From Streptosporangiaceae bacterium (GTDB lineage: Bacteria; Actinomycetota; Actinomycetes; Streptosporangiales; Streptosporangiaceae): DNA of 64,000 bases. The DNA is taken from contig JAOPYK010000102.1 in NCBI GenBank assembly GCA_025964695.1, positions 32,130 to 96,129 of the forward strand, written 5' to 3'. Under the pieces are notes generated by a model, which was not told the DNA's origin, ran no database searches, and was given only the letters and a program-made list of their open reading frames with translations. Position numbers and translations under genes: made by a program. The first letter of the stretch is position 1. The number at the start of each line of letters is the position of its first letter. Below are positions 12,127 to 28,138 of the stretch, in pieces.

Positions 12127-15100
12127 TCAGTCGTGTCCCGGAGGCGGCAAGGCCACCTGGATCTGGGTGTGGACGCCGGTGGCGACGAACAGGCCACGGC
12201 CCACCGGGCCGCCCATCGAGGCGTTGCGCGGCAGCCGGAGCCCGAAGATGTCGCCGTCGTCCGCCGACTCCACCGACAGCAGAAGCCCGGATCGGGAACG
12301 CCGGGTGTCGGACAGGAACCCCCGATAGCCCCGGCTCAAGTCCTGGGTGGTGCCGCCCACGATGACCCCGTGCTCACCGTCCCGGGCGCTGCGCAGCACC
12401 CTCGCCAGTGCGTCGTCCAGGTCGGTCTCGTCCAGGAGTTCGGCGTCGTCGACCACCACGACGTAGCGGTCCTCCTGCTCCAGCAGCGCGTTCAGATCGG
12501 CCTCTTCGGCGGAAGCGTCCAGCACCCCGAGCACCCCGCGTTGCCCGGCCAGCTGCCGTAGCGGGGAGCGGCGCGGTGTGATCAGCGCCACCGGTACCAG
12601 CCCTCCGCCGACGGCGGGGTCCAGCAGCGAGCCGACCATCGTGCGCAGCGTGGTGGACCGGCCGGACCGCGGCGGCCCGGCGACCATGAATCCCGGCCCG
12701 TCGGCCAGCAGGTCGATGCCCACCGGTGCCAGCGCGTCGCCGCCGACCCCGATCAATGACCAGAGCCGGGAGGGAGCAAGTGCCTCGGGATCCAGGGCCA
12801 GCGCCTCGCGGTAGGTCACCCGTACCGGCAGCTCGTCCACGTGCAGCGGGCGCAGCGGACGCGGCAACCGGCCGTAACGCGACGCGCACGCCCGGGCCAG
12901 CGCCTGCAGCGCGGCGACCTGGCCAGTGCCGGAAGCGTCGTCGCCGAGCAGCCCCACCTGCGACTCGCGCAGCGGCCCGGTCGCCACGATCTGCTCCAGC
13001 ATCCGGCCCGGCGGCATCTCCGAAGGCACCGAACGCTCGTTGAACCCGGCGTAGCCGTAGTCGGCCGGGTCGGCCATCCGCAGCACCAGCCGGCGGTCGA
13101 AGACCGTCGAGACCTGACCGCCCAGCCCGGACCGGTCACCGGCGAACACCCCGCGCAGCCCGACCGCCGCGCCTTCGCGCAGCAACTGCAGCACGGCGGT
13201 GACCAGGCGCCCGTAGTCATAGTGCTCGAAGGCACCGACGAAACCCTCCCACCGGTCGAGCAGCAACAGCATCCAGGGCAGCCGCTCCGCCGTCGGCACC
13301 GCGGCCCGCTGTTCGGCCAATGCGGCGAACCCGGCCCCGGCCAGCAGTTGCTGCCGCCGCGACACCTCGGCGGACAGCGCGGTGATGAGCCGTTCGACCC
13401 GGTCGAGCTGGTCCCGCCCGACCACCGCCCCGCAGTGTGGCAGGGCCACCAGGGGCAGCAGCGCGCCGGCTCCGCAGTCGATCGCGTACAGATGGACGTC
13501 GTAGGGCGAGCATGAGCCGGCCACCGCACCCGCCAGCGACCGCAGCGCCGTCGACCGGCCTGACCGCGCCGACCCGGCGATGTAGACGTGGCCGCCGGCG
13601 GCGAGGTCCAGTGCGAGCGCGCCTCGCGACTGCGACTCCGGCACGTCGGTCACTCCGAACTCGATCGGCGGCAGATCCACCACCGACCCGCCGGCCGCGA
13701 CCCGCGGCGACAGGGCCAGCCTTTCCGGCAGCGGCTCCAGCCACGGCGACGGCTGGACCGGGATCCGCGCCCGCACCGCCGCGGCCCGTACCGCTTCGAC
13801 CAGTACGGACAGGTCGGTGACCATCGACTCGTCCTCGTCCGGCTTGGTCTTCCCGGCCTGCGCCGGGCGGCCCAGGTCATGCCAGCCCAGCGCCCGCACC
13901 GAGGCCGTCGACGGCTCGGACGTGCCGCCGGGACGCCGCCCGCCGATGCGCGCCGACTGTACGGCGTGCAGCGATGACGCCCCGGCTCTCACATAACAGC
14001 GGCCCGGCGTGGCCTTGGAGATCTTCACGGCGTCGACGGCGTCCAGCACGTCGGTGGACTCTTCGGCGTCGGTGACCCGCAGCGCGATCCGCAGATTGGT
14101 GTTGGCCCGGATGTCGGCGGTGACCACGCCCGCCGGACGCTGCGTCGCCAGGAACAGATGGACGCCCAGGGATCGGCCCCGGCGGCCGATGTCGACCAGC
14201 CCGGTCATGAACTCGGGCAGATCAGCGACCATCGCGGCGAACTCGTCGATCACCAGCACCAGCCGGGGCATCGGCTCCAGCGGCGGAGGCTGCGGGGCGA
14301 ACCTGCCATGTCCCCCCGGAGACGGTTCAGCGGGCCGGGCCGCCGGGGACACCAGGCGCCCCGCCTGATGACGGAGGTCGTGGTAGTCCTCGATGTCCTT
14401 GGCCCCGGCCCGTAGCAGGATCCTTTCCCGCCGCCGCAGCTCGGCGGCGAGCGATTCCAGTGCCCGTTCGGTGAGGTGGCCGTCCAGGTCGGTGACCATG
14501 CCGACCGTGTGCGGCAGTTGCGCGCAGTCCTTGAACGCCGCGCCGCCCTTGTAGTCGATGAGCACGAACGTCATCTCGTCCGGCCGGTTGGCCACCGCCA
14601 GCGAGGCGATCATGGTCTGCAGCAGCTCGGACTTGCCCGCGCCGGTGGTGCCGGCGATCAGCCCGTGCGGCCCGTCCGTACGCAGATCGACGAAAAAGGG
14701 CCCGTCGGTGGTCAGGCCGATCGCCACCCGGGTCCCCGCCTGCGAGGTCTTCCCGGTGTCCGCGGACCTGGACCACGCGCCCAGCACGTGGTCGGCGGTC
14801 GGCTTGGGCATGCCCAGCAGCTCCAGCAGCCGGGCCGATCCGGGCAGCCCGCTCTCGGAGTCCTCCCGCGACACGTCCCGTACGGGGGCGAGCGCGCGGG
14901 CCAGCCGGTCGCACCAGGCGGGGGAGACCTGGTCGGCCAGGACCCTTCCGATGGCGTCGAGGCCGTGCCCCCGCAGGCGTACCGAATCCGGCCGGTCCCA
15001 GTCCCAGGCCGCCACGGCCGTGCACTCTTCCGGCAGCATGCGTTCGTCGTCGTCGAGGCAGAGCGCGTACACCCCGTACTCCGGGCCGTGCGCCAGCACC

Positions 15101-16758
15101 TGCGGCATTCCGGGCACCCGTCGCAGCAGCCGGGCGCCGTCCAGCACGACCAGGATGTTGTACGGGGGCGTGGCGGCCGAGCCGGAGCCCGCGAACGGGT
15201 TGGTGGTCGACTGCGCCTCGCGGCGGCGCTCGGTGATGCGGATCGCCAGCTCGGTCACCCGGTGCGCCACCGATTCGGGGTCGGTGCCGACCATGACGGC
15301 GCAGTCCTCGCCCTCGTGCGGTGCGCAGTGCGGCAGCCAGCGCACCCAGTTCCACTGCTCGGCGGCGTCATCGTCGGCCGAGCCGGAATCAGCACAGAGT
15401 ACGACGACGGCCAGGTCACGCGGGCTGTGCAGGGCCGCGGCCTGCGCCACCATCCAGCGGGCCAGCGCGCGTGAGCCCTTCCGTGGCCCGGTGAGGCCGA
15501 CGACGCCCAGCTCCGCCACCGGCAGCGACACCGGGACCGTCTGCGCGATGGGCGGCCGATCCTCACCCTCCGCCGCCCCGACCAGCTCGATGCGGGCGGG
15601 CTGGTCGGCCAGCCCGATCCGGAGCTGGAGGGCGTCCGGGTCGGTGATGCGCCGCTCCCAGAGCCGCTTGCGCGGGCCGGTCGCGGTGAGCAGCACCTCG
15701 GCCGGGTCGGGGTGGAACGCGCGCCGCTCCCGCTCGTCCTCCTGGCGGAGCGTCTCCAGCGTGCCGTCGAAGTCCGCGACCTTCTGGTGATAGTCCTTGA
15801 GCGCCTTCTTGTAGGACTTGCGCCCGTGCAGGCGGTCGCCGACCCACTCACCGACCTGCATGACCGGCCAGCTCAACGCGAACAGTGCCCACCACCACTG
15901 CTTGAGCGCGAACGCCATCACCAGCCCGAACGCCGAGAACAGCAACGCCCCGAACAGCCGGAGCCGCTGTTTGTCGTTGCGCTCGGGCTTCGTCGGCACG
16001 TCGAGGCGCTTGGGCCGCTGGAACGGGGTGATGCGCGGCGGCCGGTTGTAGGCCAGGCCGCCCTCGTCGAGGGGCTCCAGATGGGTGTCGGCGGCAGAGC
16101 TCGGCGCCAGCGTCAGGACCGTGGAGCCGAGGATGAGCATGCCCCCCTCCGTCCACTCGGTCTTGGCCTCGATCGGCAGCCCGTCCATGGTGGCCTGGGT
16201 GTTGTTGGAGGCCTCGACGGTGACGCGGTCCCGTTCCACGATGACCCGCAGCGAGCGGCCCGGGATGGCCGGGTCGCCGAGCCGCAGATCCGCGTCCTTG
16301 GAGGTGCCGAGGGTCGTCGTGCCGATGCCCAGCCGATGTACGGCTCCGGCGGCCGGGCCGCCGGCCACCCTGATCTCGACGAGCCCGGTCGGCTCGGTCA
16401 GCACCGTCGCCGGTGCGCTGCCCTGCTCGATGGTGACCATGGCGCCGTCTCTGAGCGCCTTGACGGCCCTGGCCGCCGGGTCCAGCATCCGGCCGTTCAT
16501 CCACAGCCCGCGCGGTGCCGCGGGGGCGGACTTGGCCAGCCAGTGCGCCCGCGGATGCGGTACGACCTCGGCGAGCGCTCCCCGGGCCTGCCCCGCTCGG
16601 CTGGGGTCCGGGTCCTGGCCACGTGTTTCCGCTGTCGAGTCCGCGTTCAGCGTGCCGAAAAGCGATCTCGCGACGCTCTCCACCGTCATATCGGAATCGC
16701 CATTGATCACTAGGTCCTGGGGGCCGTGACCGGTCAGCGCCGTGAGCGAGATCCGCAT
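12127..16758 (-). CDS. Type VII secretion-like FtsK/SpoIIIE ATPase with N-terminal FHA domain (EssC/EccC-like)
   Basis: MRISLTALTG start; FHA-like VHRLGIGTTTLGTSKDADLRLGD...; two TMs near LFGALLFSAFGLVMAFALKQWWW; Walker A GTTGAGKSEL plus GSARSGRSTA and GPPRSGRSTT. Confidence 0.9.
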   Translation of the reverse strand: MRISLTALTGHGPQDLVINGDSDMTVESVARSLFGTLNADSTAETRGQDPDPSRAGQARGALAEVVPHPRAHWLAKSAPAAPRGLWMNGRMLDPAARAVKALRDGAMVTIEQGSAPATVLTEPTGLVEIRVAGGPAAGAVHRLGIGTTTLGTSKDADLRLGDPAIPGRSLRVIVERDRVTVEASNNTQATMDGLPIEAKTEWTEGGMLILGSTVLTLAPSSAADTHLEPLDEGGLAYNRPPRITPFQRPKRLDVPTKPERNDKQRLRLFGALLFSAFGLVMAFALKQWWWALFALSWPVMQVGEWVGDRLHGRKSYKKALKDYHQKVADFDGTLETLRQEDERERRAFHPDPAEVLLTATGPRKRLWERRITDPDALQLRIGLADQPARIELVGAAEGEDRPPIAQTVPVSLPVAELGVVGLTGPRKGSRALARWMVAQAAALHSPRDLAVVVLCADSGSADDDAAEQWNWVRWLPHCAPHEGEDCAVMVGTDPESVAHRVTELAIRITERRREAQSTTNPFAGSGSAATPPYNILVVLDGARLLRRVPGMPQVLAHGPEYGVYALCLDDDERMLPEECTAVAAWDWDRPDSVRLRGHGLDAIGRVLADQVSPAWCDRLARALAPVRDVSREDSESGLPGSARLLELLGMPKPTADHVLGAWSRSADTGKTSQAGTRVAIGLTTDGPFFVDLRTDGPHGLIAGTTGAGKSELLQTMIASLAVANRPDEMTFVLIDYKGGAAFKDCAQLPHTVGMVTDLDGHLTERALESLAAELRRRERILLRAGAKDIEDYHDLRHQAGRLVSPAARPAEPSPGGHGRFAPQPPPLEPMPRLVLVIDEFAAMVADLPEFMTGLVDIGRRGRSLGVHLFLATQRPAGVVTADIRANTNLRIALRVTDAEESTDVLDAVDAVKISKATPGRCYVRAGASSLHAVQSARIGGRRPGGTSEPSTASVRALGWHDLGRPAQAGKTKPDEDESMVTDLSVLVEAVRAAAVRARIPVQPSPWLEPLPERLALSPRVAAGGSVVDLPPIEFGVTDVPESQSRGALALDLAAGGHVYIAGSARSGRSTALRSLAGAVAGSCSPYDVHLYAIDCGAGALLPLVALPHCGAVVGRDQLDRVERLITALSAEVSRRQQLLAGAGFAALAEQRAAVPTAERLPWMLLLLDRWEGFVGAFEHYDYGRLVTAVLQLLREGAAVGLRGVFAGDRSGLGGQVSTVFDRRLVLRMADPADYGYAGFNERSVPSEMPPGRMLEQIVATGPLRESQVGLLGDDASGTGQVAALQALARACASRYGRLPRPLRPLHVDELPVRVTYREALALDPEALAPSRLWSLIGVGGDALAPVGIDLLADGPGFMVAGPPRSGRSTTLRTMVGSLLDPAVGGGLVPVALITPRRSPLRQLAGQRGVLGVLDASAEEADLNALLEQEDRYVVVVDDAELLDETDLDDALARVLRSARDGEHGVIVGGTTQDLSRGYRGFLSDTRRSRSGLLLSVESADDGDIFGLRLPRNASMGGPVGRGLFVATGVHTQIQVALPPPGHD

Positions 16759-17162
16759 TCGTGTCCTCCGCCGTTCTGCCTGGGCCCACCCTAATTTGCG
16801 GACTCCCGCACGCGCGGGTCGCTTTGGAGTGTTCCATTGCCTGGACCGCCCGCACACCGGCTGCTCAGGGCGGTTCCCCCGCCGCTCGCCGGCGTGCTGT
16901 TCGCGGAACGTGCGGGCTAGGCAAGATCGGCTGAGTTACCCAGACTGAATGGTCAGTAAACCCTTCCGCACTGTCCGGATAGGGACATTATGGGCCACCA
17001 TTGTGACTAACCGTAAGGCTTAGAGTGATCCACAACGGCTGGCAGATTTGTCCGCCGGGTTACGGGAAGGCGTCACCTGTTCCAATCCGTTGACGTGGCC
17101 TTGTCAAGCCCGCGACCATGGGTCGCTCCGGCACTGTGCAAACCCCCGGAGTGGCCAGAGCT

Positions 17163-17996
17163 ATGAGGACCAGTCAGACGCCGTCCCTGACGAAGAACAA
17201 CTCCGCAGGGACGCAACGCACCGGGCTCGGTGGAGCCACAGGTCAGCAGCGCCTTCCGGTGCCGCCACGCGAGCGCAGGCCCGCCCTCGCGGCGCTGGCC
17301 GTCCTCCTGATCGTCTGTGGTGCGCTCGCGAGCGCGTACCTCGTGATGGCCAGCGGGCAGCGGGTCTCGGCGATCCAGATCAACCAGCCGGTGGCGGCCG
17401 GACAGCAGATTCCCGTCGGAGCGCTGCAAGAGGTGCAGATCGGTAACACCGGGATCAGTTACATCAGCTGGACCGAGCGCTTCAAGGTCGCCCGGGCGTT
17501 CGCCGCCGTGCCGCTGGTCAAGGGCGCGCTGCTCACCAACGGCATGCTCAGCTCCACCGACGCGGCCGCGCAGGGACGGGTCATCGTGGGCCTGGCCCTG
17601 AAGACCGGGCAGTTGCCGGCGAGCGGACTCCGGATAGGCGACCATGTCAGCCTCTACTCGGTGGGCGGGAACAGCACCTCGGTGAAGCCCGGCACGGTGC
17701 TGTCCGGCGACGCGATCGTCTCCTACAGCGGTGGAAGCAGCGGCCAGAACAACCAGGTGTCCTCCGATCAGACCTCGGTGTCGGTGGCGGTCCCGCCGGA
17801 TCAGGCGCCCCTGCTGACCCAGGCGGCCTCGGCGGGTGCGGTCGCGGTCGCGTTGCTGCCCTCCGGGGTGAAGGTCGACAAGGCGCAGGTGGTGCCCCCC
17901 GCCGTCCAGCCGGTCGTTCCTGACAAGAGCACGCCGGCGACCGGCAGGCAGACCGTCGGGACCGCCCCGGCCGGTGGGACGAAGACGGGCGGCTGA
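17163..17996 (+). CDS. CpaB/SAF-domain-like pilus assembly protein
   Basis: N-terminal TM then VSAIQINQPVAAGQQIPVGALQEVQIG SAF signature; first gene of Tad locus. Confidence 0.78.
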   Translation: MRTSQTPSLTKNNSAGTQRTGLGGATGQQRLPVPPRERRPALAALAVLLIVCGALASAYLVMASGQRVSAIQINQPVAAGQQIPVGALQEVQIGNTGISYISWTERFKVARAFAAVPLVKGALLTNGMLSSTDAAAQGRVIVGLALKTGQLPASGLRIGDHVSLYSVGGNSTSVKPGTVLSGDAIVSYSGGSSGQNNQVSSDQTSVSVAVPPDQAPLLTQAASAGAVAVALLPSGVKVDKAQVVPPAVQPVVPDKSTPATGRQTVGTAPAGGTKTGG

Positions 17997-17998
17997 CC

Positions 17999-19006
17999 GT
18001 GGCACTCATCGCTCTCGCCGCCGACAAGGGGGCTCCCGGCGTCACCACGGCGGCCGTCGCCCTGGGCGCGGTCTGGCCCCGGCCGGTGCTGGTGGCCGAG
18101 TGCGACCAGGGCGGCGGAGACCTCGTCTACCGCCTGCCCGCCGAGAACGGCGGAATGCTCAACCCGGCACGTGGCCTGCTCAGCCTGGCGGCGACCGCGC
18201 GGCGTGGTCTGCGCCCGGACCAGATCGGCGAGCACACCCAGCGGCTCGTCGGTGGTATGGACGTGCTGGCCGGGCTCACCAACGCCGAACAGGCCCAGGG
18301 GCTGACCTGGCTGTGGGGACCTCTCGGGCGGTGTTTCGCCAGCCTGCATCCCATCGACGTCCTCGCCGACTGCGGCCGGCTCGGTGCCGGCGGCCCGCTC
18401 AACGACCTGCTGCGCGAGGCGGACATGATCGTGCTGTTCACCCGGCCTTCGCTGGAGCAGGTCGCCCATCTCCGGGAACGCGTGACGGCCCTGGCCTCGG
18501 TCGAGTCCAGGACCCGGCCGCCGATCGGCATCGTGGTGATCGCCGACCCGCGCGACTACCGAAGCTCGATCGCCGAGGTCGACCGGATCGTCACCCAGGC
18601 CGAACTGCCCGCGACGGTTCTGGGGGGTTTCGCCTATGACGCCAAGGGAGCCGAAATGCTCCGCGGGCAGTGGGGCGGCCGGCTGGATCGCTCGCTGCTC
18701 ATCCGCTCGGCCCGCGAACTCGCCGGAGTCCTGCTGGGACGGCTGACGGTTCCGGGATCACCGGCCGCAGGCCTGCCCCCGTCGGTGACGTCGGCGCCGC
18801 TGGTGCCGCCGGCCGGTCCGCGTTCCCGCCAGTCCGGGCCGCCGTCACCCCCCGCCGGCGGGCAGCCGAGTCGTTCCGGCCCGCTGGCACCTCCGGCACA
18901 GCCCAGGCACGCGGGGTCTCCGACTCCTCCCGTCACCCCGCGACCGACTCATCCCGAGGGCATGGCCCCGGTGACACCCGCTCCGCGAGTCGAGGGGGGG
19001 CGGTAG
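17999..19006 (+). CDS. CpaE/MinD-like protein with degenerate P-loop
   Basis: LAADKGAPGVTTAAVALGAVWP...VAECDQGGGD; immediately upstream of cpaF-like gene. Confidence 0.75.
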   Translation: MALIALAADKGAPGVTTAAVALGAVWPRPVLVAECDQGGGDLVYRLPAENGGMLNPARGLLSLAATARRGLRPDQIGEHTQRLVGGMDVLAGLTNAEQAQGLTWLWGPLGRCFASLHPIDVLADCGRLGAGGPLNDLLREADMIVLFTRPSLEQVAHLRERVTALASVESRTRPPIGIVVIADPRDYRSSIAEVDRIVTQAELPATVLGGFAYDAKGAEMLRGQWGGRLDRSLLIRSARELAGVLLGRLTVPGSPAAGLPPSVTSAPLVPPAGPRSRQSGPPSPPAGGQPSRSGPLAPPAQPRHAGSPTPPVTPRPTHPEGMAPVTPAPRVEGGR

Positions 19007-20308
19007 ATGGACCACGGTCTGGTCAAGCGGCTCCGTCAGGAGGTCGGCGACCGGCTGGCCCAGCAGCGTCGTCTCGACGCCGCCAGCGGGCTCGCTCCGA
19101 TGTCCAGCGAGGACGAGCGGCAGTTCGCGCGTGCCATCATCTCCCAGGTTCTCGAGGAGTTCGCCCGTGGTGAGATCACCTCGGGCCGCCGTCCGCCTAC
19201 CGCGGAGGAAGAGGAGGCGCTGGCCGCCGGAGTCCATGCCGCGCTGTTCGGTGTCGGCCGGCTACAGCCGCTGCTCGAGGATCTCGAGATCGAGAACATT
19301 GACATCAACGGCTGCGACCAGGTCTTCATCGGTTACGCCGACGGTCGCGAGGTCATGGGTGAACCGGTCGCCGAGTCCGACGAAGAGCTCGTCGAGCTGA
19401 TCCAGATTCTCGCCGCCTACAGCGGGCTGTCCTCCCGCCCCTTCGACACCGCCAACCCGCAGCTCGACCTGCGGCTGCCGGACGGATCCCGGCTGTCGGC
19501 CGTCATGGACGTCACCCTCCGGCCCGCGCTGTCGATCCGCCGGGCTCGGATGGGCAAGGTCTTCCTCTCCGACCTGGTGGGCAACGGCACGTTGAGCGCC
19601 GAGCTGGGCCAGTTCCTCAGGGCCGCCGTGCTGGCCCGGAAGAACATCATGCTGGCCGGGGCCACCAACGCGGGCAAGACCACCATGCTGCGCGCGATCG
19701 CCAACGAGATCCCGTCGCAGGAACGCCTCATCACGGTGGAGCGGGCACTGGAGCTCGGTCTCGACCAGTTCCCGGAGCTGCATCCCAACTGCGTGGCGTT
19801 CGAGCAGCGACTGCCCAACTCCGAAGGCCAGGGAGCGATCTCCATGGCCGAGCTGGTCCGCCGGTCGCTCCGCATGAACCCCTCGCGGGTCATCGTCGGT
19901 GAGGTCCTCGGCGACGAGATCGTCACCATGCTCAACGCGATGACCCAGGGCAACGACGGCTCCCTCTCGACCATCCACGCGAACTCCTCGATGGAGGTCT
20001 TCAACCGCGTCGCGACCTATGCCATCCAGTCCGAGGAACGGCTGCCCATCGAGGCCACCCACATGCTCATCGCCGGTGCCATCGACTTCGTCGTCTTCAT
20101 CGAGAAGCGCAACGACTACGTCCAGGGCGGCCGGCTCCGGCGGTTCGTGTCCAGCGTCCGTGAGGTCACCGGCTGTGATGGCCGGGTGCTGTCCAGCGAG
20201 GTCTTCGCCTCGGGCCGGGACGGGTTCGCGGTGTCCGCCGCCCCCATCTCCTGCATGGACGACCTGGCCGAACACGGCTATGACCCGCGGGGGGCGATGT
20301 GGCAGTGA
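19007..20308 (+). CDS. Tad pilus secretion ATPase (TadA/CpaF)
   Basis: LAGATNAGKTTMLRAIANEIPSQERLITVE Walker A, IVGEVLGDEIVTMLNAM, STIHANSS. Confidence 0.93.
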   Translation: MDHGLVKRLRQEVGDRLAQQRRLDAASGLAPMSSEDERQFARAIISQVLEEFARGEITSGRRPPTAEEEEALAAGVHAALFGVGRLQPLLEDLEIENIDINGCDQVFIGYADGREVMGEPVAESDEELVELIQILAAYSGLSSRPFDTANPQLDLRLPDGSRLSAVMDVTLRPALSIRRARMGKVFLSDLVGNGTLSAELGQFLRAAVLARKNIMLAGATNAGKTTMLRAIANEIPSQERLITVERALELGLDQFPELHPNCVAFEQRLPNSEGQGAISMAELVRRSLRMNPSRVIVGEVLGDEIVTMLNAMTQGNDGSLSTIHANSSMEVFNRVATYAIQSEERLPIEATHMLIAGAIDFVVFIEKRNDYVQGGRLRRFVSSVREVTGCDGRVLSSEVFASGRDGFAVSAAPISCMDDLAEHGYDPRGAMWQ

Positions 20309-20324
20309 ACAGGAGGGCCCGCTG

Positions 20325-21284
20325 ATGTTCGGGCTCGACGTCATGGAAGCGGTCGTCTCGGGGGCGGTGTTCGGCGGTGGTGTGCTGCTGCTGGTCATGT
20401 CACTGCGAGGCTTCCCGGTACGCCCCGGTAAGCCGGCGAGTAAACGCGACCTCCAGCAGACGTTCCACGCCTTCGGCAGGCGTATCGCGATCGCGGTCGG
20501 CGTGGGGGCGGTGGTACTGATCGCCACGCAGTGGGTGGTCGCGGCGGTGGGCGCCGCGCTGCTGGTGCTCGGCTGGAACGGCATCGCGGGCGGTGCGGGC
20601 GAGGAGCGCCAGGCGATGGTGCGCCTCGAGGCCCTGGCGGCCTGGACCGAATCGCTGCGCGACACGATCGCCGGGGCGGTCGGGCTGGAGCAGGCCATCC
20701 CGTCGTCACTGCGGGCTGCGGCTCCGGCTCTGCAGGCGCCGCTACGCATTCTCGTCGACCGCATGCACACGCGGATGCCGATGGCGGACGCGTTGCGCAG
20801 GTTCGCCGACGACATCGACGATGCCTCCGCCGACCTGGTGATCGGGGCGTTGATCCTCAATGCCCGGCTGCGCGGACCGGGCCTGCGCGACATGCTCGGT
20901 GCCCTGGCGACCTCTGCCCGAGCCGAGCTCGACATGCGGCGCCGGGTGGAGGCCGACCGGCGTACCACTCGCCGCAGCGTGCAGATCGTCGTCGGGTTCT
21001 CGGTCGGGACCTCCCTGCTGCTGGCGATCTTCAACCAGGAGTACGTCCGGCCCTACAACACTCTCGTCGGCCAGTTGGTGCTCATCGTCGTCATCGCTTT
21101 CTACGCCGCGGCCTTCCTGTGGCTACGGCGGCTGTCCAAGTACGACCTGCCGCAGCGGTTCCTCGGAGACCGGGGAGCGCAGCCGGGCGTTCCCGGCGAG
21201 GTCCCGGCGACGGTGGCCGGCTGGCAGGACAGTGTTCCGCTGCGCGGACGGGCCGCGATGGACGCCGGAGGTGGTCTGTCGTGA
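20325..21284 (+). CDS. Tad pilus inner membrane protein TadB-like (T2SSF)
   Basis: TM segments plus LRDTIAGAVGLEQAIPSSL...LGALATSARAELDMRRRVEADRR; position after tadA. Confidence 0.85.
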   Translation: MFGLDVMEAVVSGAVFGGGVLLLVMSLRGFPVRPGKPASKRDLQQTFHAFGRRIAIAVGVGAVVLIATQWVVAAVGAALLVLGWNGIAGGAGEERQAMVRLEALAAWTESLRDTIAGAVGLEQAIPSSLRAAAPALQAPLRILVDRMHTRMPMADALRRFADDIDDASADLVIGALILNARLRGPGLRDMLGALATSARAELDMRRRVEADRRTTRRSVQIVVGFSVGTSLLLAIFNQEYVRPYNTLVGQLVLIVVIAFYAAAFLWLRRLSKYDLPQRFLGDRGAQPGVPGEVPATVAGWQDSVPLRGRAAMDAGGGLS

Positions 21285-22192
21285 CCGCGGCACTCCTGGC
21301 CGGAGTCGCCTTCGGGGCAGGGCTCTTCGTGCTGTTCCGGGCGTTGTTCCCGGCACGGCCCGGGCTGGCGGCCAGCCTGGCGGCCTTCGACGCGGCGAAC
21401 CGCCGGCGTGACCAGGACGCGCGCGTCAGCCTGACCTCGACGACTCAGAAGAACAACGTGGGGCTCCGTGCCGATCTCGGCGCCGCACTGGCCCGCTTCT
21501 ACGAGGCGAGAGGGTGGCAGCAGCGGAACGTCAGGGCGGACCTGGCGATCCTGGACAAGTCCTTCGAGGCCTTCCTCGTGACGAAGTTCCTTCTTCCGGC
21601 CGTGGCGCTGCTGTTCACCCCGTTCCTCGCGGTCCTCGGCACGCTGCTCGGCCTGCCCCTCGCCATACCGCTGTGGTTGGGAATTCTGTTCGCGGCGTTG
21701 TTCTTCGTCCTTCCCGACATGCAGCTTCGGCAGGAGGCCGGTCAACGCAGAAAGGACTTCCGGCACGTGGTCGGCGCCTTCCTGGATCTGGTGGCCATGA
21801 ACCTCGCCGGTGGCCGGGGAGTGCCGGAAGCGCTGATGATGGCCTCCCAGATCGGCGATGGCTGGGCGTTGCGTCGCATCCGCGAAGCGTTGGCCAACGC
21901 CCGTATCACCGGGCACACGCCCTGGCAGGCGCTCGGCGTGCTGGGCGACGACGTCGACATCGCGGAACTACGTGATCTATCCGCCGCGCTCGCTCTGGTC
22001 GCCGACGACGGGGCCAAGGTCCGCCAGTCGTTGTCGGCCAGGGCCGCCTCCATGCGCAGCCGGCAGCTCTCCGACCTCGAGGGCAAGGCAGGTGAACGAT
22101 CCCAGTCCATGTTGGTGGCCCAGCTGCTGTTCTGCGCGGCCTTCATGATCTTTCTCGCCTATCCGGCCGTGGTCCGGGTACTCGGCTCCTGA
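21281..22192 (+). CDS. Tad pilus inner membrane protein TadC-like (T2SSF)
   Basis: GTGA overlap with tadB; DFRHVVGAFLDLVAMNLAGGRGVPEALMMASQIGDGWALRRIREAL. Confidence 0.87.
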   Translation: MTAALLAGVAFGAGLFVLFRALFPARPGLAASLAAFDAANRRRDQDARVSLTSTTQKNNVGLRADLGAALARFYEARGWQQRNVRADLAILDKSFEAFLVTKFLLPAVALLFTPFLAVLGTLLGLPLAIPLWLGILFAALFFVLPDMQLRQEAGQRRKDFRHVVGAFLDLVAMNLAGGRGVPEALMMASQIGDGWALRRIREALANARITGHTPWQALGVLGDDVDIAELRDLSAALALVADDGAKVRQSLSARAASMRSRQLSDLEGKAGERSQSMLVAQLLFCAAFMIFLAYPAVVRVLGS

Positions 22193-22230
22193 TGCCAAAC
22201 CCAGATGGATCTATCCCAAAGGAGTGCGGA

Positions 22231-22461
22231 ATGAACCCTCTCGACAACCCGGCCGTCGTCTACGCGCGGGCCTGGCTCGACGTTCGTTTCCGGCGATTGC
22301 GGAGCGAAGATCGGAGCCTGGGCGCCTCCGCCATCGAGTGGGCGATCATCACCGGCATCCTGGCGACAATCGCCGTCATCATCGGGGGCGTCATCTATAC
22401 CAAGGTCAATAGCGCGACCGCCAACATCAATGTCGGCAATGGCGGCGTCGGGGGTCGCTAG
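22231..22461 (+). CDS. Flp-type pilin
   Basis: aaaggag RBS; LGASAIEWAIITGILATIAVIIGGVIYTKVNSA (class III prepilin-like G/XXXXEW). Confidence 0.75.
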   Translation: MNPLDNPAVVYARAWLDVRFRRLRSEDRSLGASAIEWAIITGILATIAVIIGGVIYTKVNSATANINVGNGGVGGR

Positions 22462-22465
22462 TCCG

Positions 22466-22900
22466 ATGCGAGGTGAGTCCAGCGGAGCCCAGTCGGAGGA
22501 CTCGGGAGCGAGCTCGATCGAGTGGGCACTGCTCACCCCGATCCTCATCACCGTCATCCTGTTCGTGGTGCAGTACGCCATGATCTACCACGCTCACCAT
22601 GTCGCGCTGGCCGCCGCGCAGAGCGGTGCCCGCGTCGCTCGCACCGACAGGTCGAGCACATGGCAGGCCAAGGCGGAGAGTCAGGCCACGGACAGCCTGG
22701 CACAGGTGGGTCCCGGGTTGCTCACCGGCGCCCAAGCGGCGGCCAGCGGTGACCAGAATGACCGCTACGTCGAGGTGACCGGCCAGGCGGTGGCGATCGT
22801 GCCGCTGCTGAGCTTCAAGGTGCGCGAGCGGGCCGGTGGCCCGAGGGAGTGTTTCCGGCCTGACTCAGGAAACGGAACGACCTGTCAGGACGGGCCATGA
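22466..22900 (+). CDS. TadE-like pseudopilin
   Basis: SGASSIEWALLTPILITVILFVVQYAMIYHAHHVALAAAQSGARVAR. Confidence 0.85.
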   Translation: MRGESSGAQSEDSGASSIEWALLTPILITVILFVVQYAMIYHAHHVALAAAQSGARVARTDRSSTWQAKAESQATDSLAQVGPGLLTGAQAAASGDQNDRYVEVTGQAVAIVPLLSFKVRERAGGPRECFRPDSGNGTTCQDGP

Positions 22901-23382
22901 TTTCGCGGCGCCGGAGCGAGTACCACCGGGCGCGCCGGCGTAGGCACCGGCGTGGGTACGGGGCTGATGACGGCACCATGACGTTGGAGATGGCCCTGCT
23001 CACACTGATCTTCGTCGGGTTCATGATGATGCTCGCCGGGCTCGGCCGGATCGTGGACGTACAGAGCCAGATCGATGGCGCGGCGCGGGACGCGGCCAGG
23101 GCGGCATCCGTCGCCCGTAACAAGGACGAAGTGGCGGGCATGGCCGAGCAGGCGGCCGTCGCGAGCCTGGGGGGCACCAGTTGGTGTACGAACGGTCCGC
23201 AGGTCCAGGCGGACACCCATGCCTGGGGGCCGGGAGGCCAGGTCACCGTCACAGTGGGCTGCAACGTCGGTCTGGGTGACGTGGCCTGGATCGGCTTTCC
23301 CGGCACCAAGACCATGGCGGGCAAATCCACCGCGCCCATCGACAAGTACACCTCCAGGGGCCTGCCCGGAGGTGCGAGGTGA
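22897..23382 (+). CDS. TadE-like protein (second)
   Basis: DDGTMTLEMALLTLIFVGFMMMLAGLGRIVDVQSQIDGAARDAARAAS; ATGA overlap. Confidence 0.8.
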   Translation: MISRRRSEYHRARRRRHRRGYGADDGTMTLEMALLTLIFVGFMMMLAGLGRIVDVQSQIDGAARDAARAASVARNKDEVAGMAEQAAVASLGGTSWCTNGPQVQADTHAWGPGGQVTVTVGCNVGLGDVAWIGFPGTKTMAGKSTAPIDKYTSRGLPGGAR

Positions 23383-23837
23383 TCCGCCCGGCCGGCACAC
23401 CTGGAAGGCCGCGGTGCCCGGCGTCGCCGCATCGTGATCGTGGCACCATCTCGATGTTCGCGGCCATCTTCACGCTGACGGTCATCCTGCTGGCGGGACT
23501 GCTGGTCGATGGCGGGCTGGCCATTCACGCACGGGAGCGGGCCTATGACATCGCGGAGCAGGCGGCCCGGGCGGGCGCCAACGACATCAACGAGGACGCC
23601 CTGCGCGCGACGGGGAAGGTGCAGATCAACGACGGTACGGCATGCGGGAAGGCCGACGATCTGATGGCCGCCTACCCCGGCGAGATCATGAGCAGTAACT
23701 GCGACGCGACCACGGACCGCGTCCGGGTGACCGTGCGCATCAGGGTGTCGCTGCAGTTGCTCAGCATTGTGCCCGGGTTCAGCGCGTTTACTATGACGGG
23801 TACGGCGTCCGCTCATCCCGACGAGGGCAACCCCTGA
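23379..23837 (+). CDS. TadG-like pilus assembly protein
   Basis: RDRGTISMFAAIFTLTVILLAGLLVDGGLAIHARERAYDIAEQAARAGA. Confidence 0.8.
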   Translation: MIRPAGTPGRPRCPASPHRDRGTISMFAAIFTLTVILLAGLLVDGGLAIHARERAYDIAEQAARAGANDINEDALRATGKVQINDGTACGKADDLMAAYPGEIMSSNCDATTDRVRVTVRIRVSLQLLSIVPGFSAFTMTGTASAHPDEGNP

Positions 23838-23845
23838 GGGGCGTT

Positions 23846-26797
23846 ATGGCAGCGAAGCAGGCGGTGAAGGTGCGGGGCGGGCGCAGCGCGCGCGATGTCC
23901 TGACGGGGCTCTGTGCGGTGGGTGCACTGGCGGCGCTGGTGGCCGGGATTCCGCTGGCTCTGCTGATCTTCTTCGGCTCACCGATTCCGACGCGGGCGCC
24001 GTCGATGAGCGACTTCACCGAGAAGATCGGGCCCAGCTCGCTCATTCACATCCTGGTGGTGCTGGCCTGGCTGGCCTGGCTGCAGCTGCTCTTCTGCGTG
24101 ATCGTCGAGTCGTACGCGGGGATCCGTGGCATCGGCGTACCGGCGAGGGTGCCGCTCGCCGGAGGCACGCAGTCACTGATCCACCGGCTCGTGGTCAGCG
24201 CGCTGCTGCTGTTCACCGCGACCACCGCGATCATGCCCGCGTTCACGGCGCGGGACCTGCATCCGATGCACACGGTGGCGGCCGCGACGGACTACACCGG
24301 GCCGTCCCCGACGACGGTGGACCAGGCCACGCAGCGGCTGGCCGAGGACGCCGCGGCCCATCCGGAGCAGAAGGCCACCACCACGAAGATCTACCGGGTG
24401 CAGCCTCCGGAGGGCCGTCATCACGAGAGCCTCTGGGAGATCGCTGACAAGTGTCTCGGTGAGGGACGCCGCTATCACGAGATCTACGAGCTCAACAAAG
24501 GCCATCAGCAGCCCGACGGGTCCATACTGCACAAGGCGAGCCTGATCCGGCCCGGTTGGGTCCTGGAGATGCCCGCCGACGCGGTCGGGGCCCAGGTGGT
24601 CCAGGTCAGTGAGCTCGGCGACTACTTCGCGCACGGCCACCCGGTGCACGGCCACGAAGCCGCACCCCAGCAGCCGGGCCGGCCCCAGGCCGGTGGCGAG
24701 CAGACGCCCGGGGCGAAGAGCGGGACAGCGGGCCAGGGCGGCCATGAGCAGCCCGGCCTGCCCGGCGGGCAGGCGACCCGGCCGCCCACGGCGGAGCGGC
24801 CGCAACCGCAGCCGCAGGGTGAACAGGTCCCCGCCACTCCGCCGGCCCAGGGGAGGAACGGCCACGCCCCCGGCGGGCAGCTGTCGGGCGGCCCGCACGC
24901 GCACCAGCACCAGGACCACGGCGTCCTCGACATCGGCTGGGTGAAGGAGCTGGCGGCGGCGTCGCTGCTGGCCGCCGGGCTGCTGGTCGCGCTGGGACGG
25001 CGGCGGCGCGTGCAGATGTGGCACCGCGCGCTCGGCCACCGGATCGCCGGGCCGGACGGTGACGCAGCGATGGCGGAGCAGGCGCTGCGCATCGGCGCCG
25101 ACTCCGAGGCGGTCCGCCTGCTCGATCTGGGGCTGCGCCAGATGTCCAAGTCGATGGCGGCCGACGGGCGCACCCTTCCGACCGTCTATGGCGTCCATCT
25201 CAGCGAGGAGAGTCTCGACCTGTGGATCGCCCCCGCCGACCGTAACGCGCCCGCACCCTGGGAGGCGCACGACGAGGGACAGGTCTGGCGGCTGCACCAC
25301 GAGGCCCTGGAAGGACCTGACACGGCCGACCTCAGCGATGTGCTGGCGCCCTACCCCGGGCTGATCTCCCTCGGCACCAACGACAACGGGCGGATCCTGG
25401 TCGACCTGGAGGCGGCGCACGGACTGATCGCGTTGCAGGGGCCGGACGAGATGCGCCGTGCGGTGCTCGCCGCGGTCGCGGTCGAGCTGGCCACCAACCG
25501 CTGGTCCGACCACATGCGGATCACACTGGTCGGCTTCGGCGCGGAGCTGCAGCAGATCGCGCCCGACCGCATCCGGAGTGTCGCGACGCTGTCCGAGGCG
25601 CTGCCGGAGTTGGAGGCCCGCTCGGCCGAGGTGCAGCAGGCGCTCTCCGCGTCCGGGGTCGACTCGGTGCTGACCGGCCGCTGCCGTGGGGTGTTCGGTG
25701 AGGCCTGGATGCCGCACTACCTGATCATGGCGGATCAGCCGACCGGAGACGAGGCGCACCGGCTGGTCGGGCTGGCCCGGACCGGCCGGCGGATGGCGGC
25801 CGGCTACATCGTCCCCGGCGACGTGCCAGGGGCGGCCTGGACCTGGGAGGTCACCGCCGAAGGCCGGTTGCAGGCCGGGGTTCTGGGCTTCGACGTCGAG
25901 GCGCAGCTCGTGCCCGAACGGCACTATGCCGCGCTCGCCGCGCTGTTCCGTACGGCCGGAACCCTCGACGGTGTTCCGCTGGCGGAACCGCAGCCGGGTG
26001 CGGAGCCTTTCGGGGCACAGGCCGGGGAGCAGCAGCCCGCGGCCGACATCCGGGTGCTCGGCCCGATCGAGATCCACGCGCTCGGCCCGATGGAGGAGAG
26101 CCGCCGGGCTCTGTGCACCGAGCTCCTGGTCTATCTGGCGACCCATCCCGGCGGGGTGCATCCGACGGTACTGAGCGGCGCGGTCTGGCCACGCGGGGTC
26201 ACGGCGGGAGTGCGGGACGCCACCATCGCCCGCGTCTCCGACTGGCTCGGCCGCGACTCCCGGGGCCGGCCGAACCTCTACTACGACGACCGTGGCCGGA
26301 TCAAGCTCGGCTCCGAGGTGCGCATCGACTGGGAGGTCTTCCGCTGGCTGATCTGGCGGTCGGCCGCCGAACCCGGTTCCGAGATGGCGTACATGTCCTA
26401 TGCTCTCGACCTCGTCCGCGGCCCGCTGCTCGCCGACCGTGAGCGCGGCCGTTACGGATGGCTGGCCAGCGAGGTTCTGGAATACGAGGCGAGCGCCCGG
26501 GTGATCGACGTCGCGCAGCGGCTGTTGCTGCTGCGGCTCGACGAGTTCGACGCCCGGGGCGCCATCGCGGCGGCACGGGCCGGGCTGCTGATGGCGCCCG
26601 AGGACGAGGGGCTCTGGCGCAACCTGCTGCGGGCCACCCACGCGGACGGCGACCACACCCGGCTGCGTGCGGTGGTGGAGGAATTGCGGCACCGGGTCCA
26701 GTACGACCCGATGCTGGACCAGCTTCAGCCCGAGACCGAGGCCCTCATCGAGGAGCTCATGCCGATGTACGGCGAGGTCGCCACACGAGGCGCCTAG
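23846..26797 (+). CDS. Multi-TM LysM-domain protein with C-terminal SARP/BTAD-like regulator domain
   Basis: Three N-terminal TMs; LysM-like ESLWEIADKCLGEGRRYHEIYELNKG...LIRPGWVLEMP; fourth TM; C-term IRVLGPIEIHALGP...BTAD helices RVIDVAQRLLLLRLDEFDARGAIAAARAGLLMAPEDEGLWRNLLRA. Confidence 0.85.
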   Translation: MAAKQAVKVRGGRSARDVLTGLCAVGALAALVAGIPLALLIFFGSPIPTRAPSMSDFTEKIGPSSLIHILVVLAWLAWLQLLFCVIVESYAGIRGIGVPARVPLAGGTQSLIHRLVVSALLLFTATTAIMPAFTARDLHPMHTVAAATDYTGPSPTTVDQATQRLAEDAAAHPEQKATTTKIYRVQPPEGRHHESLWEIADKCLGEGRRYHEIYELNKGHQQPDGSILHKASLIRPGWVLEMPADAVGAQVVQVSELGDYFAHGHPVHGHEAAPQQPGRPQAGGEQTPGAKSGTAGQGGHEQPGLPGGQATRPPTAERPQPQPQGEQVPATPPAQGRNGHAPGGQLSGGPHAHQHQDHGVLDIGWVKELAAASLLAAGLLVALGRRRRVQMWHRALGHRIAGPDGDAAMAEQALRIGADSEAVRLLDLGLRQMSKSMAADGRTLPTVYGVHLSEESLDLWIAPADRNAPAPWEAHDEGQVWRLHHEALEGPDTADLSDVLAPYPGLISLGTNDNGRILVDLEAAHGLIALQGPDEMRRAVLAAVAVELATNRWSDHMRITLVGFGAELQQIAPDRIRSVATLSEALPELEARSAEVQQALSASGVDSVLTGRCRGVFGEAWMPHYLIMADQPTGDEAHRLVGLARTGRRMAAGYIVPGDVPGAAWTWEVTAEGRLQAGVLGFDVEAQLVPERHYAALAALFRTAGTLDGVPLAEPQPGAEPFGAQAGEQQPAADIRVLGPIEIHALGPMEESRRALCTELLVYLATHPGGVHPTVLSGAVWPRGVTAGVRDATIARVSDWLGRDSRGRPNLYYDDRGRIKLGSEVRIDWEVFRWLIWRSAAEPGSEMAYMSYALDLVRGPLLADRERGRYGWLASEVLEYEASARVIDVAQRLLLLRLDEFDARGAIAAARAGLLMAPEDEGLWRNLLRATHADGDHTRLRAVVEELRHRVQYDPMLDQLQPETEALIEELMPMYGEVATRGA

Positions 26798-28035
26798 CGC
26801 AGGCCGTGGCCCAGCGAGTAGCGGCCCGGCTGGGGGTAGAAGCAGAGCCCGTGCGGGCCCTTGCCCACCTTGATCTTCCGGACGACGGCGCCGGTCCGGG
26901 TCGAGATCGCGTACACGGCGCCGTCATGGCGACCGGACAGCCACAGCACCGCGCCGTCGGCCGACACCGCGCCCAGGTCAGGTGAGCCCACTTCGGGCAG
27001 CCGCCACTTCCGCACGACCCGGCGGTCGGCGAAGGAGATCAGCGAGATCGTGCCCTCGCCCGGGTTGGTCACATAGAGGAGTTCGCCGTCGCGGCTGGGA
27101 TAGAGCCCGTGCGCGCCCCTGCCGGTCGGGATGAAGCCGATCTCGCGGAACCCGGCGGCGTCGATGACCCGCACTCCACCGCTCGTCATGTCCGAGACAT
27201 AGAACACCGTGCCGTCCGGAGAGAGCTTCACGTCCTGCGGCGCGGGCCGGGAAACGGCGAGCCCCGCCCTCTGCGGGGCTACGAGGTCGATCACCCGGGT
27301 CACCGTGCGCCGACGGAGATCGACCTTGATCAGCCGTCCGGAAAACTCACAGCCGACCAGGGCGTACGAGCCGTCCGCGGTGAAGTCGGCGTGGTTCAGG
27401 CCCCGGCACGGCACCGGGATCGAGGCCTGCAATCTCATGGAGTGCGGAGCCCGGAGGTCGATGCGGTGCATCCTCTCGGCCAGCACCAGCGCGTGCCGCC
27501 CGTCCGGGGTGAAGTACAGGTCGTGCGGTGCGGCCACCGGCACGGCCCTGCCACGGCGTCCGGTCCGCGGGTCCACCGGGACCAGCGCGCCGCCCCGGTC
27601 GTCGTTGACCCAGAGGGTTCTCAGGTCCCAGGACGGAAGCACGTACTGCGGCAGCCGGCCCGCCTTGAAGTGACCGACGACCGTGTAGGACTCGGGATCG
27701 ATGACGTCCACGGTGCCGCTCTGGCTGTTCGGCACGTAGACGCGCTGCGGGAATCGCCTGACCACCTGGCTCAGCATGTCGCCCCGGGTCGCGGCGTACA
27801 CGTCACGCGTACGTGCCGTGTCGAGCCCTGTCGTGGGCACGCGTCCGGAGGTCGTCGCGGACAGGGACAGGCCGGGACGGACGTACGGGAACGGAGCGCC
27901 GAACCCGAGGACCGGGTCGGCGGGGCTCGGCGGCTGCGCCTTGAACGCCATCGCCTGGCAGCCGCAGAGCAGGGCGGCACCGACCAGCGCACCCGCCAGT
28001 GCGCCGGCCGATCGCCTACCCGAGGTCGCTCGCAT
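26794..28035 (-). CDS. Lipoprotein with YVTN-type beta-propeller repeats
   Basis: Lipobox-like ALLCGC; YVPNSQSGTVDVID, FYVSDMTSGGVRVID, LYVTNPGEGTISLI repeats. Confidence 0.85.
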   Translation of the reverse strand: MRATSGRRSAGALAGALVGAALLCGCQAMAFKAQPPSPADPVLGFGAPFPYVRPGLSLSATTSGRVPTTGLDTARTRDVYAATRGDMLSQVVRRFPQRVYVPNSQSGTVDVIDPESYTVVGHFKAGRLPQYVLPSWDLRTLWVNDDRGGALVPVDPRTGRRGRAVPVAAPHDLYFTPDGRHALVLAERMHRIDLRAPHSMRLQASIPVPCRGLNHADFTADGSYALVGCEFSGRLIKVDLRRRTVTRVIDLVAPQRAGLAVSRPAPQDVKLSPDGTVFYVSDMTSGGVRVIDAAGFREIGFIPTGRGAHGLYPSRDGELLYVTNPGEGTISLISFADRRVVRKWRLPEVGSPDLGAVSADGAVLWLSGRHDGAVYAISTRTGAVVRKIKVGKGPHGLCFYPQPGRYSLGHGLR

Positions 28036-28138
28036 AACGCGGTGACTGTACCGCCATGACCACACGCTGTGCCGGATCCGTCACGAAAAGCATGCGATCG
28101 TTTGACTGACGGGTCGAACGCGGGAGTGCAGCCAGGGC

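Follow-up and report, generated by a model that had tools for sequence, protein, structure and literature searches.

A Tad-linked LysM/BTAD membrane protein of Actinomycetota: a candidate wall anchor of the monoderm Tad machine

Monoderms have neither an outer membrane nor a secretin. What holds the Tad (Tfpc) assembly complex together in these organisms is a named open question, and the minimal Tad systems of B. breve and M. luteus have been described without a LysM/BTAD protein of the kind reported here (PMC6916266), which means that such a protein is not universal. According to the literature, RcpC/CpaB and the outer-envelope parts are missing from monoderm Tad loci, the absence of rcpC/cpaB being stated for Gram-positive tad loci (PMC8467076). 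In diderms, the peptidoglycan-binding protein CpaD of Caulobacter has been proposed as the anchor of the Tad secretin (PMC13170226). FimV/HubP proteins consist of a periplasmic LysM domain, a transmembrane segment (TM) and a cytoplasmic TPR-type domain (PMC12918733), and in P. aeruginosa the type IVa pilus machine depends on the LysM domain of FimV for its localisation (PMC5285504).

The combination of LysM and BTAD domains in a Tad locus has already been listed for PAGK_2369, which is encoded in the Tad locus of the P. acnes plasmid pIMPLE and was labelled 'TadB'; no central domain was noted and no function was tested in that report (PMC3666418). Judged by its description, PAGK_2369 resembles the protein analysed here in its position in the Tad locus and in having both domains, and Cutibacterium relatives were among our matches. 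Many relatives are named in RefSeq after LysM or BTAD, such as 'LysM peptidoglycan-binding domain-containing protein' on actinobacterial plasmids. In the literature searched, neither a functional study of any family member nor a mention of the central domain was found.

The last gene of the Tad operon and its relatives

The window, that is, the whole stretch of 64,000 nucleotides analysed here, contains a Tad operon whose last gene encodes a 983-aa protein (Table 1). The reading frame comprises 983 codons without an internal stop, and a chance or frameshifted ORF is ruled out by relatives that span the full length at roughly 60-85% identity. Its start lies 9 bp past the TadG stop codon, and this short gap together with the GAGGGG across that stop makes translation within the Tad operon very likely. 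Both features, as well as the linkage to cpaF described below, bear out the proposal of an earlier note, made from the DNA sequence alone, that the gene closes the Tad operon and is co-transcribed with the pilus genes. In contrast to the statement in PMC8467076, the loci read here do carry an RcpC/SAF-type gene, including at the head of the Tad operon in the window. Divergent from this operon is a gene for an EssC/EccC-like protein of 1576 aa (window 12127-16857, reverse strand) with FHA-like and FtsK/SpoIIIE-type domains.

Table 1. Coordinates of the Tad operon genes and of the features of the 983-aa protein in the window
Feature	Position	Strand	Basis
RcpC/CpaB-like, first Tad operon gene	17118..17996	+	PF16976 E 2.8e-4, below cut-off
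TadZ/CpaE-like	17999..19006	+	position, ParA-like sequence; no Pfam match
CpaF/TadA motor ATPase	19007..20308	+	PF00437 E 7e-30
TadB platform protein	20322..21284	+	PF00482 E 6e-5, just below cut-off
TadC platform protein	21281..22192	+	PF00482 E 1e-7
Flp-like pilin	22192..22461	+	hydrophobic stretch after ASAIEW, position; no Pfam match
TadE minor pilin	22430..22900	+	Pfam
Second TadE-like minor pilin	22897..23382	+	Pfam
TadG-like protein	23379..23837	+	Pfam
GAGGGG, Shine-Dalgarno-like, overlapping TadG stop; likely translational coupling	23836..23841	+	sequence read
983-aa Tad-associated LysM / pseudo-FtsK / wHTH-BTAD membrane protein	23846..26797	+	ORF translation; relatives
TM1, residues 25-43, N-terminus predicted inside	23918..23974	+	hydropathy, flanking charges
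TM2, residues 69-87	24050..24106	+	hydropathy
TM3, residues about 111-133	24176..24244	+	hydropathy
LysM domain, residues 178-245, predicted extracytoplasmic	24377..24580	+	NCBIfam, Pfam in relatives, alignment
His/Gln/Pro-rich variable linker, residues 246-362	24581..24931	+	low conservation
TM4, residues 363-384	24932..24997	+	hydropathy
RRRR basic cluster, residues 385-388, predicted just inside membrane	24998..25009	+	sequence; relatives
Predicted FtsK/EccC-type pseudo-ATPase domain, residues 395-715, without Walker A	25028..25990	+	AlphaFold, Foldseek, hhalign with controls, motif check
SARP/OmpR-type winged-helix domain (wHTH), residues 733-830	26042..26335	+	profiles, AlphaFold
Recognition-helix equivalent, residues 787-801, charge-reversed	26204..26248	+	AlphaFold, alignment
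BTAD, TPR-like helical domain, residues 831-975	26336..26770	+	profiles, AlphaFold

Relatives of the LysM/BTAD protein were found across Actinomycetota. A related-locus search returned 68 loci, almost all from Thermomonosporaceae, and tblastn matched 209 plasmid records, some of which cover only part of the protein, whereas no relative was found in the viral contigs searched. Upstream sequence of 7.4 kb or more was available for 66 loci, and in 62 of them cpaF precedes the gene on the same strand; in the other four (L020, L054, L057 and L060), a cpaF that is 89-90% identical lies about 11-17 kb away by coordinates. When the central domain alone was used as the query, 24 genomes in a phylum-wide sample of 297 gave matches. 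Twelve of these distant loci were read out; their selection was by contig position and preceded any look at the neighbouring genes. All of them have homologues of CpaF, TadB, TadC, TadE and TadG directly upstream on the same strand, with a single frame matching both TadB and TadC in L138; RcpC and TadZ are additionally present in 11, neither being detected in L134. The same Tad linkage was observed in 18 plasmid loci, so that the genetic association with Tad genes is consistent over the 66 loci, the 12 distant loci and the 18 plasmid loci.

Several individual loci deviate from this pattern. In L020 and L060, the gene is separated from the Tad operon, with cpaF roughly 15-17 kb off behind unrelated genes. 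In two Actinomadura assemblies (L035 and L069), it is apparently split over two frames, reflecting either a frameshift or a sequencing error. A Tad locus on a Chloroflexota plasmid (L079, 8939-14290) that ends with a 1783-aa LysM protein was not counted as a relative, since homology beyond LysM, in the C-terminal part, was not significant.

Domain composition and predicted topology

With the window protein as the sole query, Pfam gave no match and a phmmer search against the PDB returned nothing useful, and distant relatives were needed for domain detection. The architecture given in the earlier note (three N-terminal TMs, a LysM domain, a linker, a fourth TM with RRRR and a SARP-like wHTH-BTAD region in a protein of 983 aa) was recovered by ORF translation, hydropathy and profile analysis, with every listed part present; that description had missed about 320 residues (395-715) of FtsK/EccC type.

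Basic residues of the window protein are located at the N-terminus, in the TM2-TM3 loop and directly after TM4, and at least five K/R occur in the 13 residues following TM4 in all 78 aligned relatives. Four TMs and this placement of basic residues predict that the N-terminus is inside, LysM outside and the C-terminus inside. The predicted topology, which agrees with the orientation proposed in the earlier note, supports a LysM domain that would face the wall and a C-terminal part that would be cytoplasmic. The LysM match of the window copy itself is weak (NCBIfam E 9e-4). Most distant relatives score above the Pfam threshold for the domain, the LysM motif falls at residues 178-245 of the window protein in the alignment, and a LysM profile match was obtained in 10 of the 12 distant loci read out. 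Of the other two, L134 has a divergent LysM-like stretch that was recognised by eye and gave no profile match, and the relative in L136 (3935-6430, reverse strand) has no LysM at all, yet its TMs and cytoplasmic part are retained and so is the Tad operon, suggesting that wall binding may be dispensable. The linker is the least conserved part of the protein, with a mean identity of about 0.2 at residues 281-360 in 59 relatives.

The central residues 395-715 are well conserved. No convincing Pfam family was found for them, and their best PDB profile match, the EccC5 ATPase, was below significance. An AlphaFold model of residues 384-983, whose input did not include the plasmid relatives, reached a pLDDT of 75.7 and a pTM of 0.72, and Foldseek searches with this model matched FtsK motor domains, the coupling protein TcpA and EccC ATPases, including EccCb1-D2 (TM 0.56 by target length, rmsd 4.1). 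In hhalign comparisons, the family profile scored 40.7 against the second FtsK/SpoIIIE domain of the adjoining EssC-like protein and 53.0 against the second FtsK domain of its Nonomuraea counterpart, the top score of 28 shuffled, reversed or unrelated controls being 25.4. The Walker A P-loop (GxxxxGK[ST]) is absent from all 78 family members checked for the motif. Model and profile comparisons therefore identify residues 395-715 as a degenerate ATPase-like domain with a predicted FtsK/SpoIIIE RecA-like fold. Compared to the EccC/EssC ATPases of type VII secretion and FtsK, with which this fold is shared, the domain lacks Walker A, sits inside a LysM/BTAD membrane protein and is linked to Tad genes.

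The winged-helix region and DNA contact

A profile of residues 729-983 reaches EmbR and AfsR, a profile of the wHTH alone reaches CadC (E 4e-5), AfsR and ToxR, and profiles, AlphaFold and Foldseek agree on the SARP architecture of an OmpR-type wHTH plus BTAD, although the BTAD match is weak in the window copy (E 0.0022; matched in 17 of 24 relatives). These similarities favour a membrane-tethered one-component regulator, in which engagement of LysM or of the pilus outside would cause the SARP-like domain to activate tad or other promoters in the manner of ToxR and CadC, whose cytoplasmic wHTH is likewise joined via a TM to an outside domain. The retention of the fold and the recognition helix in the AlphaFold model and the preservation of S-R-L-R in Streptomyces-type relatives also speak for such a regulator. 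Unlike in CadC and ToxR, however, the wHTH of the window protein is C-terminal, is followed by BTAD and is charge-reversed, and unlike SARPs such as AfsR and EmbR, to which it is related in fold and sequence, the protein is membrane-bound and its clade has lost the residues for DNA and sigma contact.

The structure of AfsR defines R87, T88, S91, R92, R94 and K95 as DNA contacts (PMC10936776). In the window protein, the phosphate-contacting R87, R94 and K95 are replaced by D791, S798 and D799. Within the window clade (60 members, including the window protein), the position of R87 is always D, that of R94 is S, A or G and that of K95 is D or E; S91 is replaced by A in all members and T88 by A in 59, leaving R92 as the only contact kept. 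All 60 also have V and G in place of the sigma-contacting E68 and D71, whereas S-R-L-R-R is kept in two ordinary SARPs from the same genome. These fixed or near-fixed replacements run counter to the transcription activation that the earlier note had suggested for the window protein, and its proposed check of the recognition helix gave a divided answer, the helix being present in the model and its AfsR-type contacts, except R92, being gone. In addition, the net charge of the wHTH is about 0 in the window protein and -3 to +3 in the relatives examined, and the 260-bp region before the Tad operon contains no direct repeats of the SARP-operator type. A distant relative (L140, 12819-15956) also lacks the contact residues of the recognition helix, which were lost by a different route. 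For the window protein, we consider the regulator unlikely.

The wHTH has moderate confidence in the model of residues 384-983 (10-residue blocks mostly about 45-79), and a separate AlphaFold model of wHTH-BTAD alone, built from nine sequences, was set aside (pLDDT 60.7); the interpretation is based on the former model and on alignments. At the same time, the wHTH is among the best conserved parts of the protein, with a mean identity of 0.85 at residues 761-840, implying that it is under selection for something, and a reasonable reading of the alignments is that its surface in the window clade has been preserved for some function that is not SARP-type DNA contact. Among 18 relatives from outside this clade, 17 retain R94 and 12 retain R92. 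Since the contact residues are partly preserved in other lineages, the data are compatible with DNA binding or regulation there, and the verdict on the regulator applies to the window clade. Annotations such as BTAD or 'putative transcriptional regulator' may mislead, as the domain looks repurposed here.

Footprinting of the tad promoter region revealed a conserved TTGACG-containing stretch without SARP-like repeats. This stretch, at window 17089-17101, immediately precedes the annotated start of rcpC, and alignment of the intergenic regions shows it to be conserved; it may represent either a promoter element or a sign of a misplaced rcpC start codon.

A proposed hub and the remaining alternatives

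Rather than a gene switch, the protein is probably a peptidoglycan-anchored hub that anchors or organises the monoderm Tad machine in the thick wall, a reading to which we assign a probability of roughly 0.6. It would be a component specific to Tad machines of a wall-adapted type in monoderm Actinomycetota. The three N-terminal TMs and TM4 would put LysM, an expected peptidoglycan binder, outside, and the variable linker would bridge it to TM4. The cytoplasmic FtsK/EccC-type domain, presumably dead, and the TPR-like wHTH-BTAD could together form a docking platform, whose partners would probably be the CpaF-TadB/C motor and TadZ, and the wHTH in this lineage may now serve as a conserved protein interface instead of contacting DNA. 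By such an arrangement the protein would position the pilus assembly complex and hold it against the wall. We infer that it fits the gap in monoderms because of this putative wall contact outside and docking platform inside, and a Tad-linked family present throughout the phylum offers a concrete candidate for anchoring of the monoderm Tad complex. The alternative of the earlier note, that BTAD may serve as a TPR-like scaffold for the pilus, fits better than its regulator reading.

The role of such a hub in monoderms would be equivalent to that of FimV or of the peptidoglycan-binding CpaD in diderms. In its predicted topology, the protein has the extracytoplasmic LysM, TM and cytoplasmic TPR-type domain of FimV/HubP in common. 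It differs from these gammaproteobacterial proteins in having four TMs and pseudo-FtsK and wHTH domains and in its monoderm hosts, and the NCBIfam scan of the window protein gave the weak LysM match and no FimV family signature. It may thus be regarded as a convergent analogue of FimV, not a family member. A broader proposal, to which we give somewhat less than even odds, is that these loci define an unrecognised class of Tad system in monoderm Actinomycetota, in which RcpC/CpaB occurs together with a hub specialised in wall anchoring. The parts of this hub would be LysM, an EccC-type ATPase domain that is dead and a SARP domain without DNA binding in this lineage, and it would hold the assembly complex together across the thick wall.

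The match between the central domain and the second FtsK domain of the adjoining EssC-like protein, and the fact that 31 related loci have an EssC-like gene divergent from the Tad operon, would also be consistent with a pseudo-ATPase partner, in which the dead EccC-like domain and the ATPase encoded divergently would form a joint assembly, tying the pilus to type VII-like or DNA-uptake export/import. In M. luteus, an FtsK/SpoIIIE gene lies beside tad-1, and mutation there lowers transformation (PMC8467076). However, most plasmid-borne relatives keep the protein with no EssC-like gene annotated in the stretches read, and we regard such a partnership as rather improbable. It is very improbable that the protein is a passenger, fused and carried along with the operon but playing no part in piliation, because, despite the separation of the gene from the Tad genes in L020 and L060, these genes are still nearby, and strong sequence conservation and phylum-wide linkage argue against it.

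Two further observations concern the surroundings of family members. A BTAD-only fragment of the family is located at a contig end beside a transposase-like ORF (L002; G000:C299, bases 2-364) and is possibly an interrupted second copy. In the window, a YNCE-like beta-propeller gene (26794-28065, reverse strand) is convergent with the LysM/BTAD gene and overlaps its end by 4 bp.
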